From assembly GCA_025354075.1 (NCBI GenBank), contig JANXNO010000157.1, positions 1-11,849 on the forward strand: a DNA stretch of 11,849 bases, in the 5' to 3' direction. The notes beneath the pieces were generated by a model. The model was not told where the DNA came from, made no database searches, and saw nothing but the letters and a program-made list of their open reading frames with translations. The stretch is from Burkholderiales bacterium (GTDB taxonomy: Bacteria; Pseudomonadota; Gammaproteobacteria; Burkholderiales; Casimicrobiaceae). Shown one piece after another: positions 4,804 to 8,895 of the stretch. How positions within the stretch are numbered: position 1 is the stretch's first letter; every line of letters begins with the position of its first letter. The translations under genes were made by a program, and so were the position numbers.

Positions 4804-5339
4804 GGCATTGCTTTGTTCTGTTGGGTTGGTATGTCTATGTCGCCAGTCTTACCCAATTGTTGACGCAATTCTTGCGTGACCCGATTCTTGCGCGCTGCTG
4901 TCGCGCGTGGAGGGTTGAAAACACATGTCTGATCCGCTACGTTGAGGTTGTCATTTATTGCGTAGCGATTGCTTTGAGCGCCTGCGTGCTCGCGATGCTG
5001 CGCATCGAGTCGATGAGGTCGGCGAGCACGCGCGCATCAAGGTTGGCACAGCGCGTGAGTCGAACAGCAGCTCTGAGCTGAATGCCGCCGGCGCATTGGG
5101 CTAAAAGCACTTTTTTGATAGAAGTCGACAATGTAGAAAATGTCATGCCAGCGCAAATAAAATAAGAGCTAAGGGCATATTGCTGTTGCTGGCCCTGTTC
5201 GCGCTCGCAGTGAAAGGAAATCGCTCCGCGCGACGACTGAACAGCAGGGCGTGGTTTGACATTCGCGGCTACGTGCATTTGCCCGAATCTGCGCATCAGC
5301 AGTAAACTTGCCGCGACCCAATTTTCATGTCTTTTTTGC

Positions 5340-5344
5340 AGGGA
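5340..5344 (+). promoter_or_regulatory. Ribosome binding site that fixes the phnD start
   Basis: AGGGA ends 8 nt before the GTG at 5353. It favours that GTG over the TTG at 5308, which would put 15 residues before a normal signal peptide. Confidence 0.6.
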
Positions 5345-5352
5345 TTTCTTTT

Positions 5353-6219
5353 GTGAAACACATCCTCCTCGCCGTTGTTGCCGTTCTTAATCTGGCGTTT
5401 TCTTTTGTCCTGCCGACGCACGCTGCTGACGTGCTTCGCTTTGGTGTGGGCCTCTACCAGCCCGACAAGGAAAAGAACGACGCGACCTATCGTCCGCTCG
5501 CCGAGTACATCGGTAAGCAGCTGGGGCGCGAGGTCAAGCTCTACACCGTGGACACTTGGGAGGGTCTGGCCAAGTCGCTGGCCAACGGCGAAACCGACAT
5601 CGCACTGATGGGCCCCTGGGGTTACGTGCTGGCGAATCACGTTGCGGGCGCGCAAGCCGTGTCGACCATCCTGTACGACGGCAAACCGGAATACTTTGCG
5701 ATCATGATCACGCATCCGAAATCCGGCATCAAGTCGATTGCCGACCTCAAGGGCAAGACCTTTGCATTTGGCGACAAGGGCTCGACCTCGGGTTACCTGA
5801 TTCCGAGCTATCACTTCCAGAAAAACGGTATCGATATCAACACGTTTCTCGGCAAGGTCATCAACACCAAGCATCAGACTATCGAACTGCAAGTGACGCG
5901 CGGCGAGCTGGATGCCGGTGCAGACTACAACCGCAATCGCGATGCGATGATTTCTGATGGCCTCATCAAAGCCGCTGACAGCGTGATTTTCTGGACCTCC
6001 GATCCGTTGCCGAACGACGCCATTGCCGTGAGTGCAACGCTTGCCAAAGACGCGGCGTTTGTCGGCACGCTTCAGGCAGCGCTGGCCGCGATTGGCCCGG
6101 AACTCAAGCGCACGCCGAATCTGTTGCCGCCGCGCTACACCGGCTTTGTGTCGAAGGACAACACGTTTTACCGCCCCATTCGTGACGCCGGGCTGGCCAG
6201 TGGGCAACTGCCAGCGCAG
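5353..6219 (+). CDS. phnD: Phosphonate/phosphite-type ABC transporter binding protein (PhnD family)
   Basis: Periplasmic solute-binding protein that delivers a phosphorus compound to the PhnE permease. The coding part ends at 6219, with stop TGA at 6220-6222. From GTG5353 it is 289 aa. A signal peptide (about 1-24) has a likely cleavage site THA/AD. Family landmarks are FGVGLYQPD after cleavage, GETDIALMGPWGYVLA (about 79-94), the ligand-loop STSG (144-147), a His at 174 in TKHQ, and DAGADYNRN (about 187-195). In E. coli PhnD the corresponding Tyr, Ser/Thr, His and Asp regions hold the phosphonate group. Length is somewhat under E. coli PhnD (338 aa). The ligand cannot be deduced: phosphonate, phosphite or a phosphoester are all possible. 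The stop overlaps phnE by 4 nt (GTGA). Confidence 0.9.
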
Positions 6220-7148
6220 TGAGTGTGGAGCAGCGCACCGCGCGCCTGCATGACACTCAGCCCATCGCCGAAGCCCATCGCAGTCCGCCGCCACCGGGTC
6301 GGGTGACGGTGCTATCGCTGCTGCTGATTTTCTGCGGTCTGCTGGTGCTGGTGAGTTTGTGGACGCTGGCGTCAGAGGACGAGCTGAGCCTCGGCCGCAG
6401 ACCGTGGCAGAACCTGAAAAAAACGGTCGCTGAAATGTCGGAGCCCAGTTTTTTGCGGGTGTGGTTTGGTGACACCCACGCCGAGGCACGCGATGCCGAC
6501 GGTAAGGTGCTGCGCGTAGATGATCAGCAGGCCAATGAGCGCCGCTATCTCGCGGGCGTGGGCCGCGCGCTGTGGACGACGTTGCGCATTGCCACGCTCG
6601 GCACCGCGCTCGCGGCGCTGATCGCACTGCCGCTCGGGTTGCTGGCCGCGCGTACGCTGCACGCGCCGCGACCGCTGTTCTGGGGGGCCAAAGCGGTACT
6701 CGACACCATGCGATCCATTCACACGCTGGTGTTCGGCCTTTTTCTTGTGGGCATTGTGGGCCTTGGCGCGACCGCAGGTATCCTCGCCGTGGCCCTGCAT
6801 TCGGCGGGCACGCTCGGTAAGTTGCTGGCTGAAGCCATTGAATCGCTGGATGCGCATCCGGTCGACGCCGTGCGTGCGACCGGTGCGACTGGGGCGCAGG
6901 TCTTCTTCCTCGGCGTGTGGCCCGCGGTGCTGCCGCAGTATGTCTCGCAAGTGCTCTACGTGTGGGAATTCAACATCCGTGATTCAACAATTCTTGGTTT
7001 GGTGGGGGCCGGTGGTTTGGGCCTGTTGCTGTCCGAGGCGATGTCGCTGTTTCAATGGGGACGACTGGCCACCTTGCTGCTCGCCATCGTGATCATGGTG
7101 ACGGCCTTTGATGCGGTGAGCCGCGCCGTACGACGGAGGCTCGTATGA
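6219..7148 (+). CDS. phnE: Phosphonate-type ABC transporter permease (PhnE family)
   Basis: Inner-membrane permease of the phn importer, 309 aa. TM1 is at about 31-50. Then comes a soluble stretch of roughly 60 residues (about 52-112), followed by the conserved transport domain with helices near 118-144, 162-195, 225-250 and 283-300. The cytoplasmic EAA loop, which contacts the ATPase, is seen as EAIESLDAHPVDAVRATGA (205-223). The PhnE signature EFNIRDSTILGLVGAGGLG lies at 250-268. The GTG start shares 4 nt with the phnD stop, which indicates translational coupling, and the gene overlaps phnC by ATGA. The charged insertion between TM1 and the core is the main departure from a minimal PhnE. 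Confidence 0.92.
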   Translation: MSVEQRTARLHDTQPIAEAHRSPPPPGRVTVLSLLLIFCGLLVLVSLWTLASEDELSLGRRPWQNLKKTVAEMSEPSFLRVWFGDTHAEARDADGKVLRVDDQQANERRYLAGVGRALWTTLRIATLGTALAALIALPLGLLAARTLHAPRPLFWGAKAVLDTMRSIHTLVFGLFLVGIVGLGATAGILAVALHSAGTLGKLLAEAIESLDAHPVDAVRATGATGAQVFFLGVWPAVLPQYVSQVLYVWEFNIRDSTILGLVGAGGLGLLLSEAMSLFQWGRLATLLLAIVIMVTAFDAVSRAVRRRLV

Positions 7149-7891
7149 CTGCGCTCGCCGTGGTCGAAGCGAGCGGGTTGTACGTCAACGCGGGTGATCA
7201 TGTGTTGCTGCGTGACGTGAATCTGAGCGTTGCTGCCGGCGAACGAATCGCCATTGTTGGCCACAACGGCGCAGGTAAATCGAGCTTTCTGCGAGCGGTA
7301 TCGGGATTCAATGGCGTGCATCGCGGCAGTCTGAAAGTGTTGGGCACCGATATCTCGGTGATCCGTGAGCGACGCGCGCTTCGCGACCTGCGCAGCCACG
7401 TGGCTCAGGTGCATCAGGGCCTGCATTTGATCGGTCGATTAAGTGTGCTCGACAACGTGCTGATCGGCGGCGCGGCGCGCAACGCGTCATGGCTCACCTG
7501 GATCCGTCGCTGGCCCGCGCATGAGGCGGAACACGCGCGCGCAGCCCTGGCGCGCGTAGGCATGAGCTGGGCTGCCGGTCGGCGCACCGATTCGCTGTCT
7601 GGCGGCGAACGGCAGAAGGTCGCCATTGCGCGCGCGCTGCATCAGAACGCCCCAATGCTGCTCGCGGACGAGCCCACAGCGAGTCTCGATGCGGAAGCTG
7701 CCGACGAGGTTATCAATCTGCTCACCGCACTTGTTGCCGAGCGTAAATCAACGCTGATCTGTGTGGTGCATGATCTCGATCTGGTGCCGCGTCTGGCGGA
7801 TCGTGTGATCGTGTTGCGACGCGGTCAGGTGGTGGCAGACGTGGCCGTGACCGCCAATACCGCGAGTGAACTGCGTGGAGTCATGAAATGA
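7145..7891 (+). CDS. phnC: Phosphonate-type ABC transporter ATP-binding protein (PhnC family)
   Basis: Cytoplasmic ATPase that powers the phn importer, 248 aa (normal length). Walker A is GHNGAGKS (39-46), the Q-loop glutamine is near residue 91, and the ABC signature LSGGERQKVAIARAL spans 151-165. Walker B MLLADE (171-176) carries the catalytic Glu, followed by the D-loop SLD and switch His at 209 (VVHD). All catalytic motifs are intact. GGAGG (7135-7139) lies 5 nt before the ATG; the ATG overlaps the phnE stop by 4 nt. The next gene again starts in an ATGA overlap, so the operon continues without a gap. Confidence 0.93.
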   Translation: MTALAVVEASGLYVNAGDHVLLRDVNLSVAAGERIAIVGHNGAGKSSFLRAVSGFNGVHRGSLKVLGTDISVIRERRALRDLRSHVAQVHQGLHLIGRLSVLDNVLIGGAARNASWLTWIRRWPAHEAEHARAALARVGMSWAAGRRTDSLSGGERQKVAIARALHQNAPMLLADEPTASLDAEAADEVINLLTALVAERKSTLICVVHDLDLVPRLADRVIVLRRGQVVADVAVTANTASELRGVMK

Positions 7892-8895
7892 TGCAAATGA
7901 CCGGATCTGAGCCAACCGCGCAAACTCAGCAACCGGAGCCAGGGCGAGTTTGCCCGTTGCGTTATCGCTACGGAGCCGCAGCAATTGCACAAGTCGAGCC
8001 ACGTGTCGCGCAAACGCTGTACGTGATCGGCGGGCTCTATGGCAACCTGCCTGCTCTGGATGCCGTCGAGCGCATGGCTTCCGCTGAATCGACGAAGCCA
8101 ACGCTGTGCTTCAACGGCGATTTCAACTGGTTCAACATTGCCGATGGTCAGTTCACCGAGATTAATCGACGTGTGCTTTCGCATGACGCGATTCAGGGTA
8201 ATGTCGAAGCGGAATTTGACGCAACCGGCGATGACGCAGGCTGCGGCTGCGCCTATCCCGAAAGCGTGGATTCCGGAATCGTTGAGCGTTCCAACTTGAT
8301 TCACGCACAGCTCAAGGCAACGGCGCGACGTCACCCCGACCTGTCCGCTCGCATCAACAGGCTGCCGATGTTTGCGCGCTATCAGGTCGGCGATTGCCGC
8401 ATTGGCGTGGTGCATGGCGATGCAGATTCGCTGGCAGGATGGCGGTTTGATGTGAATGAGCTGGACGATCCCGCTGCTGTGCCGTGGCTTCAGTCGGTAT
8501 TTGCCCAAGCCGATGTACAAATGTTTGCCAGCACGCATACCTGTCTGCCCGCGATGCGTGAGTTCGCATTGATCGGCACGCACCGTAATGAGCGCGGCTG
8601 GGTTGTCAACAACGGCGCGACCGGCATGCCCAATTTCTCAGGCGATCTGTCTGGACTTTGCACCCGAATCGGACTCACGCCGTCGCCCCATCCTGCCGTT
8701 CATGAAGTCAGGGTGGCTGGTGCGTACATTGCGCTGCTGCCGGTTCGTTTCGACATCGAGCGCTGGCGCGCGGAGTTCCTGCAGCAATGGCCCGACGGCT
8801 CGGCAGCGTGGGCGTCCTACTGGCAGCGCATCAACAGCGGACCGACGTATCAGGCTGCGCAGGCGATTAGTCGCGGGTCGTCAGCTATTGGCTGA
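7888..8895 (+). CDS. Calcineurin-like metallophosphoesterase homologue with altered metal site
   Basis: 335 aa, coupled to phnC by a 4-nt overlap with GGAG 7 nt upstream (7877-7880). The fold is recognised from five ordered motifs: VIGGLYGNLPALDAV (46-60), the position of DIHGNLPAL; FNGDF (75-79); QGNVE (103-107); VVHGD (174-178); and STHTCLPA (215-222) with NNGATGMP (241-248). The bridging Asp (D78) and the site-2 ligands (N105, H176, H217) are present. The three site-1 ligands are replaced: Asp by G49, the first His by Y51, and the last His of HxH by C219. A CGC pair (C119, C121) follows the GNVE motif. No signal peptide or TM is seen, so it should be cytoplasmic. Its place in the operon suggests processing or sensing of the imported phosphorus compound. 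Classic two-metal hydrolysis may not occur; a one-metal enzyme or a binding protein are alternatives. Confidence 0.75.
   Translation: MMQMTGSEPTAQTQQPEPGRVCPLRYRYGAAAIAQVEPRVAQTLYVIGGLYGNLPALDAVERMASAESTKPTLCFNGDFNWFNIADGQFTEINRRVLSHDAIQGNVEAEFDATGDDAGCGCAYPESVDSGIVERSNLIHAQLKATARRHPDLSARINRLPMFARYQVGDCRIGVVHGDADSLAGWRFDVNELDDPAAVPWLQSVFAQADVQMFASTHTCLPAMREFALIGTHRNERGWVVNNGATGMPNFSGDLSGLCTRIGLTPSPHPAVHEVRVAGAYIALLPVRFDIERWRAEFLQQWPDGSAAWASYWQRINSGPTYQAAQAISRGSSAIG

Follow-up and report, generated by a model that had tools for sequence, protein, structure and literature searches.

The DNA analysed here encodes a protein of metallophosphoesterase fold that carries a Car1-related CGC cysteine pair and half a metal site, and its family is found at importer and arsenosugar loci. 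The protein has 335 residues and is encoded by an open reading frame at positions 7888–8895 on the forward strand of the window, by which we mean the whole stretch of 11,849 nucleotides under study (Casimicrobiaceae, contig JANXNO010000157.1). The ligands of its metal site 1 are replaced, whereas the CGC pair is kept. The best reading, which we infer from these and the following features, is that of a dithiol reductase, related to Car1 and acting on As(V) compounds, in which metal site 1 was given up, and the family may handle arsenic rather than phosphate. As far as sequences can tell, this arsenic reading is supported by the loss of site 1, the CGC pair held in common with the Car1-type family, the co-occurrence with arsS and the coupling to importers.

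The gene occupies the last place in a run of four genes on the forward strand. The run begins with a periplasmic binding protein that is HtxB-like (5308–6222, start codon uncertain; above the cut-offs of PF12974 and TIGR01098), followed by an ABC permease of the PhnE family (6219–7148; TIGR01097, 240.8 bits, cut-off 216.7) and a PhnC-like ABC ATPase (7145–7891; TIGR02315, 205.7 bits, under the cut-off of 266.1). All three junctions are 4-base overlaps, including that between the ATPase stop and the open reading frame of the 335-residue protein. An ordinary tRNA-Ser (GCT) lies after the first open reading frame of the window, at 1419–1511. Pfam and NCBIfam scans of the 335-residue protein returned no match even at E 1, PF12850 and PF00149 of Pfam included, and a distant family member (L080) scored 22.1 of the 27 bits needed in the gathering-score test of these two families. 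None of the best 120 of its 5759 homologues carries a Pfam label, and no solved structure in the PDB was matched by the window protein sequence or by its family profile. The window protein has the calcineurin-like fold of the dinuclear metallophosphoesterases.

We aligned 293 distinct relatives, namely 240 database proteins among the matches listed and 53 genome loci. A search with the window protein gave 5759 homologues at E 1e-3, not all of them necessarily members of its family, among the 7994 candidates with the most shared words, and a second search with a distant member as the query gave 3806 homologues of 5265 candidates; the best 120 of each were used. The 293 sequences are mutually related, and the counts that follow measure constraint, not independent events. 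The DxH position, G49-L50-Y51 in the window protein (8032–8040; G49 codon 8032–8034, Y51 codon 8038–8040), reads G-L/V-Y throughout, with V in three sequences, and a canonical DxH occurs in 0 of 293. The HxH position, H217-T218-C219 in the register favoured below (8536–8544; H217 codon 8536–8538, C219 codon 8542–8544), reads H-T/S-C in 291 of 293 and never has both His: H217 and C219 are each kept in 292, the exceptions being P0074 and L076, respectively, both with G. The bridging Asp of the GDxx motif (D78, 8119–8121), the GNxE motif of site 2 (N105-V-E107, 8200–8208; N105 codon 8200–8202) and the motif-IV His of site 2 (H176, 8413–8415) are retained, so that the GD, GNxE/D and motif-IV His residues D78, N105 and H176 are present in 293 of 293. 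Invariant along with them are G49, Y51, E107, D178, C119 and C121. A further cysteine, C22, is found in 291 (the remaining two have gaps), and the window-family C74 is invariant in the close set, yet present in just 222 of the full alignment. Five more family members, from genomes without arsS, show the same motifs, with E107 changed to D in two.

The alignment indicates that replacement of the site-1 ligands with retention of site 2 is family-wide and fixed. A preliminary description of this DNA had read G49-L50-Y51 as the former DxH and H217-T218-C219 as the former HxH, with D78, N105, H176 and H217 retained, and had argued from the selectivity for one site and from the intact frame, coupled to an active-looking operon, that this was not random decay. 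All of these residues are present in the open reading frame, and the conservation of G49 (293/293), Y51 (293/293) and C219 (292/293) accords with that argument; sequencing error or recent decay is ruled out by conservation across the 293 sequences. The archaeal structures 2gju and 1nnw, of the same fold, have a degenerate DxH (N-I-A) and GN for GD, and constitute another lineage lacking metal ligands.

The preliminary description had further claimed that exactly the three site-1 ligands are gone, and this depends on the register of HxH. When BLASTP and hhalign align the window protein with the canonical Car1-type family introduced below, S215 falls opposite the first and H217 opposite the second His of GHTH, so that the loss would comprise two ligands of site 1 and one of site 2, and the claim would not hold. 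A profile-to-profile scan of Car1-type residues 160–178 gave 18.6 for the gap-free offset +49 against 7.8 for +47; the eight other offsets tried scored below zero, and when one gap was allowed plain +49 was still the best path. Predicted secondary structures of the Car1-type and window families agree with +49 at a helix end (159/208) and two strand starts (163/212 and 173/222), and deviate from it by one residue at a strand end (167/215) and by three at a helix start (149/195). The S215/H217 register is thus disfavoured by the profile scan and by most of the predicted secondary structure. The register with H217 as the first and C219 as the second His position appears favoured, although not proven, and with it the loss of exactly three site-1 ligands. 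In either register, one HxH His and both DxH residues are lost.

The preliminary description did not mention the pair C119-G-C121 (8242–8250), which is invariant in 293 of 293 and is aligned by BLASTP and hhalign to C74 and C76 of the Car1-type family. Car1 of Rufibacter tibetensis (Shen et al. 2024) is described in a citing paper (PMC12124457) as an As(V) reductase of the metallophosphoesterase type in which Cys74 and Cys76 are essential. A plasmid search with the window protein led to a Hymenobacter metallophosphoesterase of 25.6% identity that sits in an ArsR-DUF6428-MPE-GNAT-ACR3 operon; it has canonical DxH and GHTH motifs, and a CGCAY motif is common to it and the window protein. Among the best 120 relatives listed for the Hymenobacter protein, which we call the Car1-type set, both CGC-x-Y and GHTH are found in 120 and the DxH pattern in 117, and the intact metal ligands of this set are absent in the window family. 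A Rufibacter member of the set has its CGC cysteines numbered C74 and C76, and our use of the Rufibacter and Hymenobacter proteins as Car1 orthologues rests on genus and Cys numbering. Other metallophosphoesterases of the order have no CGC (0/10).

Comparison of the two families by hhalign gives a probability of 96.6 (E 6e-10). The window-family profile finds all 120 listed Car1-type proteins at E 1.1e-10 to 0.013, and the best other metallophosphoesterase found with the same profile, L138, has E 9e-5, outranking the weakest Car1-type rows (E 0.013); the next has E 0.27. L158, itself a member of the window protein's family, was left out of this ranking. In a tree, whose outgroup was limited to the 10 of 29 loci that yielded a usable protein, the window family forms one clade on a long branch; with three groups and no root, the tree gives no sister-group placement of the window and Car1-type families. 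The loop holding CGC is the less certain stretch of both predicted models (block means 73 and 51). Overall, the window protein has in common with Car1 the metallophosphoesterase fold, the CGC pair and an arsenic setting. Unlike Car1, it has DxH and the second HxH His replaced, is longer, and is set beside an importer and arsS rather than in an ars operon. The structures 3qfn and 3rqz, which we take to be SapH / COG0639-like metallophosphoesterases, differ from the window protein in site-1 ligands, and the examined part of 3rqz has no CGC. In two further papers, a metallophosphoesterase in an ars operon appears as an uncharacterised protein (PMC10652896) and as a figure label (PMC6620896). A literature search, much subscription literature being outside its reach, found no description of the window protein's family in the sources it covered.

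We then consider the genomic setting of the family. Of 300 genomes surveyed in the order, 49, spread over 15 families, match the window protein (in five of them the match is split or fragmentary), and arsS, which encodes the arsenosugar radical SAM enzyme, is called above the curated cut-off in 93. The two co-occur strongly: arsS is present in 48 of 49 protein-bearing genomes against 45 of 251 others (p 2.6e-28, kinship ignored), and 45 of the 93 arsS genomes of the order are without the protein. The two genes lie no more than 15 kb apart in 34 of the 49 genomes, on one contig but far apart in one, and on different contigs, or with arsS missing, in 14. The window's own genome has arsS on another contig (C374; 447 bits, cut-off 300), where two genes with the name of arsenosugar glycosyltransferases come after it. 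In a neighbourhood set of 81 loci (80 of named genomes and one plasmid locus), arsS is near the protein gene in 47, and the two named glycosyltransferases are also near in many. ArsS arsenosugar loci (TIGR04167, TIGR04283 and TIGR04282) thus have arsS and both glycosyltransferases in common with many window-family loci, relative to which the importer and the window-family protein are an added module. Two genomes of the same genus as the window's (G228 and G163) have arsS and lack the protein, so that presence of the module varies within a genus. On Burkholderia glumae plasmids, arsS is directly followed by the protein gene (L081:5021-7035), and 47 of 50 plasmid records matching the protein are from Burkholderia. 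The full arsS-symporter-protein locus occurs (L076:6001-6951) in a bin from a lake metagenome whose title, Bordetella parapertussis, may be a mislabel.

A separate search for arsS at E 1e-40 covered 28 protein-bearing genomes; it was found in 21 of 21 further genomes reached through loci but in 2 of 7 others, and 4 of 7 protein-bearing genomes of a phylum sample are without it. The search at E 1e-40 did not find arsS in five protein-bearing genomes (G242, G368, G433, G467 and G655). G242 offers a short contig with ABC genes and has 6% contamination; the other four belong to the class. The protein gene follows a symporter gene in G368, G433 and G467, where the locus also has a VTT-oxidoreductase fusion together with a radical SAM gene other than arsS; in G655 the symporter alone clearly adjoins the protein gene. 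The radical SAM gene lies between the fusion and the symporter (L169:4700-5662, L172:4897-5859 and L173:10022-10984), and the two that were scanned, those of L169 and L173, are nearest NF049973 (Rv1681 family), at about 100 of 380 bits.

The protein could instead be a phosphoesterase, working with one metal or re-liganded by Tyr51, Asp78 and Cys219, on a phosphate-containing intermediate of, for example, arsenosugar or phosphonate metabolism. The kept fold and site-2 residues, the full or near invariance of Tyr51 and Cys219 at former ligand positions and the frequency of glycosyltransferases at arsS loci all fit such an enzyme, but it would have to operate with DxH replaced in every relative and beyond the reach of PF12850 and PF00149 at E 1, and it leaves the invariant CGC pair unexplained; we regard it as unlikely. 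A one-metal phosphoesterase, a different metal and a ligand-binding sensor were the interpretations offered in the preliminary description, which are partly supported here, while its metal-site observation is confirmed.

The gene directly upstream of the protein gene encodes an HtxB-like ABC ATPase in 31 of the 81 loci, a sodium:solute symporter in 27, ArsS in 12 and another product in 11. An importer is thus directly upstream in 58 of 81, and the ABC and symporter types never occur together in one locus. Importer genes also lie beside the protein gene in genomes without arsS, and the protein is therefore linked to an importer no less firmly than to arsS. Two other genes recur at these loci. 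In 26 of 81 (for example, L022:6939-9080), a gene near arsS or the protein gene fuses a VTT (TVP38-type) membrane domain to a mercuric-reductase-like flavoprotein, and this fusion might supply electrons to a dithiol enzyme. A type II haloacid dehalogenase (TIGR01428, above cut-off) adjoins the protein gene on either strand in 20 of 81 (L020:6961-7644, L002:7002-7706).

The binding protein of the window operon is nearest HtxB (E 1e-41, against 4.9e-20 for PtxB, 3.3e-19 for PhnD, 6.2e-12 for ArrX and 2.6e-10 for AioX-type proteins). Alignment to 5me4 shows the pocket residues W52, T129, S130, R178 and D206 kept and, relative to HtxB, N128 changed to Ser, F158 to His and M176 to Tyr; a count of all of them except the Tyr, over the binding protein of the window and 31 others from these loci, finds no variation (32 of 32). 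The Trp cap, Ser, His, Tyr/Phe and Arg-Asp pair place it by alignment in the HtxB-like class, named 'hybrid' in PMC5700983: the Trp cap, Thr-Ser loop and Arg-Asp pair are shared with HtxB and this class, and the Ser, His and Tyr changes are those of the hybrid class. Where HtxB systems have phosphorus-oxidising genes, the operon has the gene for the window-family protein after that for the binding protein. PMC6629693 gives the class a larger pocket (88 versus 68 cubic ångström) and considers its affinity for phosphite likely. The operon might take up reduced phosphorus, as phosphite or hypophosphite, with the protein in phosphorus metabolism and only an indirect link to arsS. The kinship to HtxB, the class-specific changes and the retained Trp cap, which speaks for a P-H ligand, point this way, but a sodium symporter takes the importer's place at 27 of 81 loci and the arsS link within the order is strong, and we find this explanation improbable. 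HtxB itself selects a two-oxygen anion, according to the literature, and the ligand here may be dimethylarsinate, a bulkier two-oxygen anion. A non-catalytic role, in which the protein binds or senses the imported ligand and controls the transporter or the pathway, is as improbable as the reduced-phosphorus explanation: close coupling to two unrelated importer types and the existence of degenerate fold members such as 2gju and 1nnw suit it, but Pfam and NCBIfam recognise no DNA-binding or signalling domain in the window protein and the unvarying CGC, GN and H176 suggest catalysis.

The distribution of arsM bears on where methylated arsenic would come from. An arsM-like methyltransferase (E 1e-40 or better) is found in 8 of 48 genomes with the protein and arsS against 17 of 45 with arsS alone (p 0.034), and within 7 kb of arsS in 0 of 48 against 10 of 45 (p 0.0004). 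All ten arsS-adjacent methyltransferases score under the family cut-off, which just 13 of the 300 genomes exceed, so they may not be arsM. Among 28 arsS loci without the protein and without a methyltransferase, neither importer type was found in 20, several of the stretches stopping at contig ends, and 12 of those 20 have the VTT-oxidoreductase fusion. That the window-family protein replaces ArsM, or that methylated arsenic has an outside source, is only hinted at by these counts. In the window's own genome, arsM was not matched at E 1e-40, ACR3 was not found and the single arsC-family match is far under its cut-off; by these tests, the organism is therefore no arsenic-resistance specialist.

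ArsS puts an adenosyl group on arsenic, as is generally known and as PMC12159101 describes. We tentatively place the window-family protein in the same pathway, as a Car1-related cytosolic enzyme of metallophosphoesterase fold, a placement with a little less than an even chance of being right. In thiol arsenate reductases, one Cys attacks arsenic and another resolves the adduct. By analogy, the importer would bring in a pentavalent arsenic oxyanion, the oxygens of which would be held by the remaining half metal site; one CGC cysteine would attack the arsenic, the other would resolve the adduct as a disulfide, and trivalent arsenic would be released and passed on to ArsS. Most speculatively, the substrate would be a methylated arsenical; dimethylarsinate, for example, offers fewer oxygens than arsenate for bridging two metals. 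The scavenging scheme that results is a good deal less secure: methylated arsenicals made by others would be imported through the HtxB-like ABC system or the sodium symporter, reduced by a dithiol enzyme that lacks one metal site or has it rebuilt with Tyr and Cys, and the product handed to ArsS.

Several observations weigh against the arsenic reading: the five protein-bearing genomes without arsS, the retention of metal ligands in Car1 and their absence in the window family, the unrooted tree, the rank of L138, the lower certainty of the CGC loop in the models, the lack of ACR3 in the window's genome, the phosphite affinity thought to mark HtxB-like binding proteins and the HxH register shifted by two aligners.

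If the arsenic reading is true, the family would represent a further step in the conversion of a phosphoesterase into a redox enzyme, and many 'hypothetical proteins' would gain a candidate function. Import and reduction would be added to arsenosugar synthesis, for the first steps of which the literature covered names ArsM and ArsS, and the ligand of the HtxB-like binding proteins would become a testable question.
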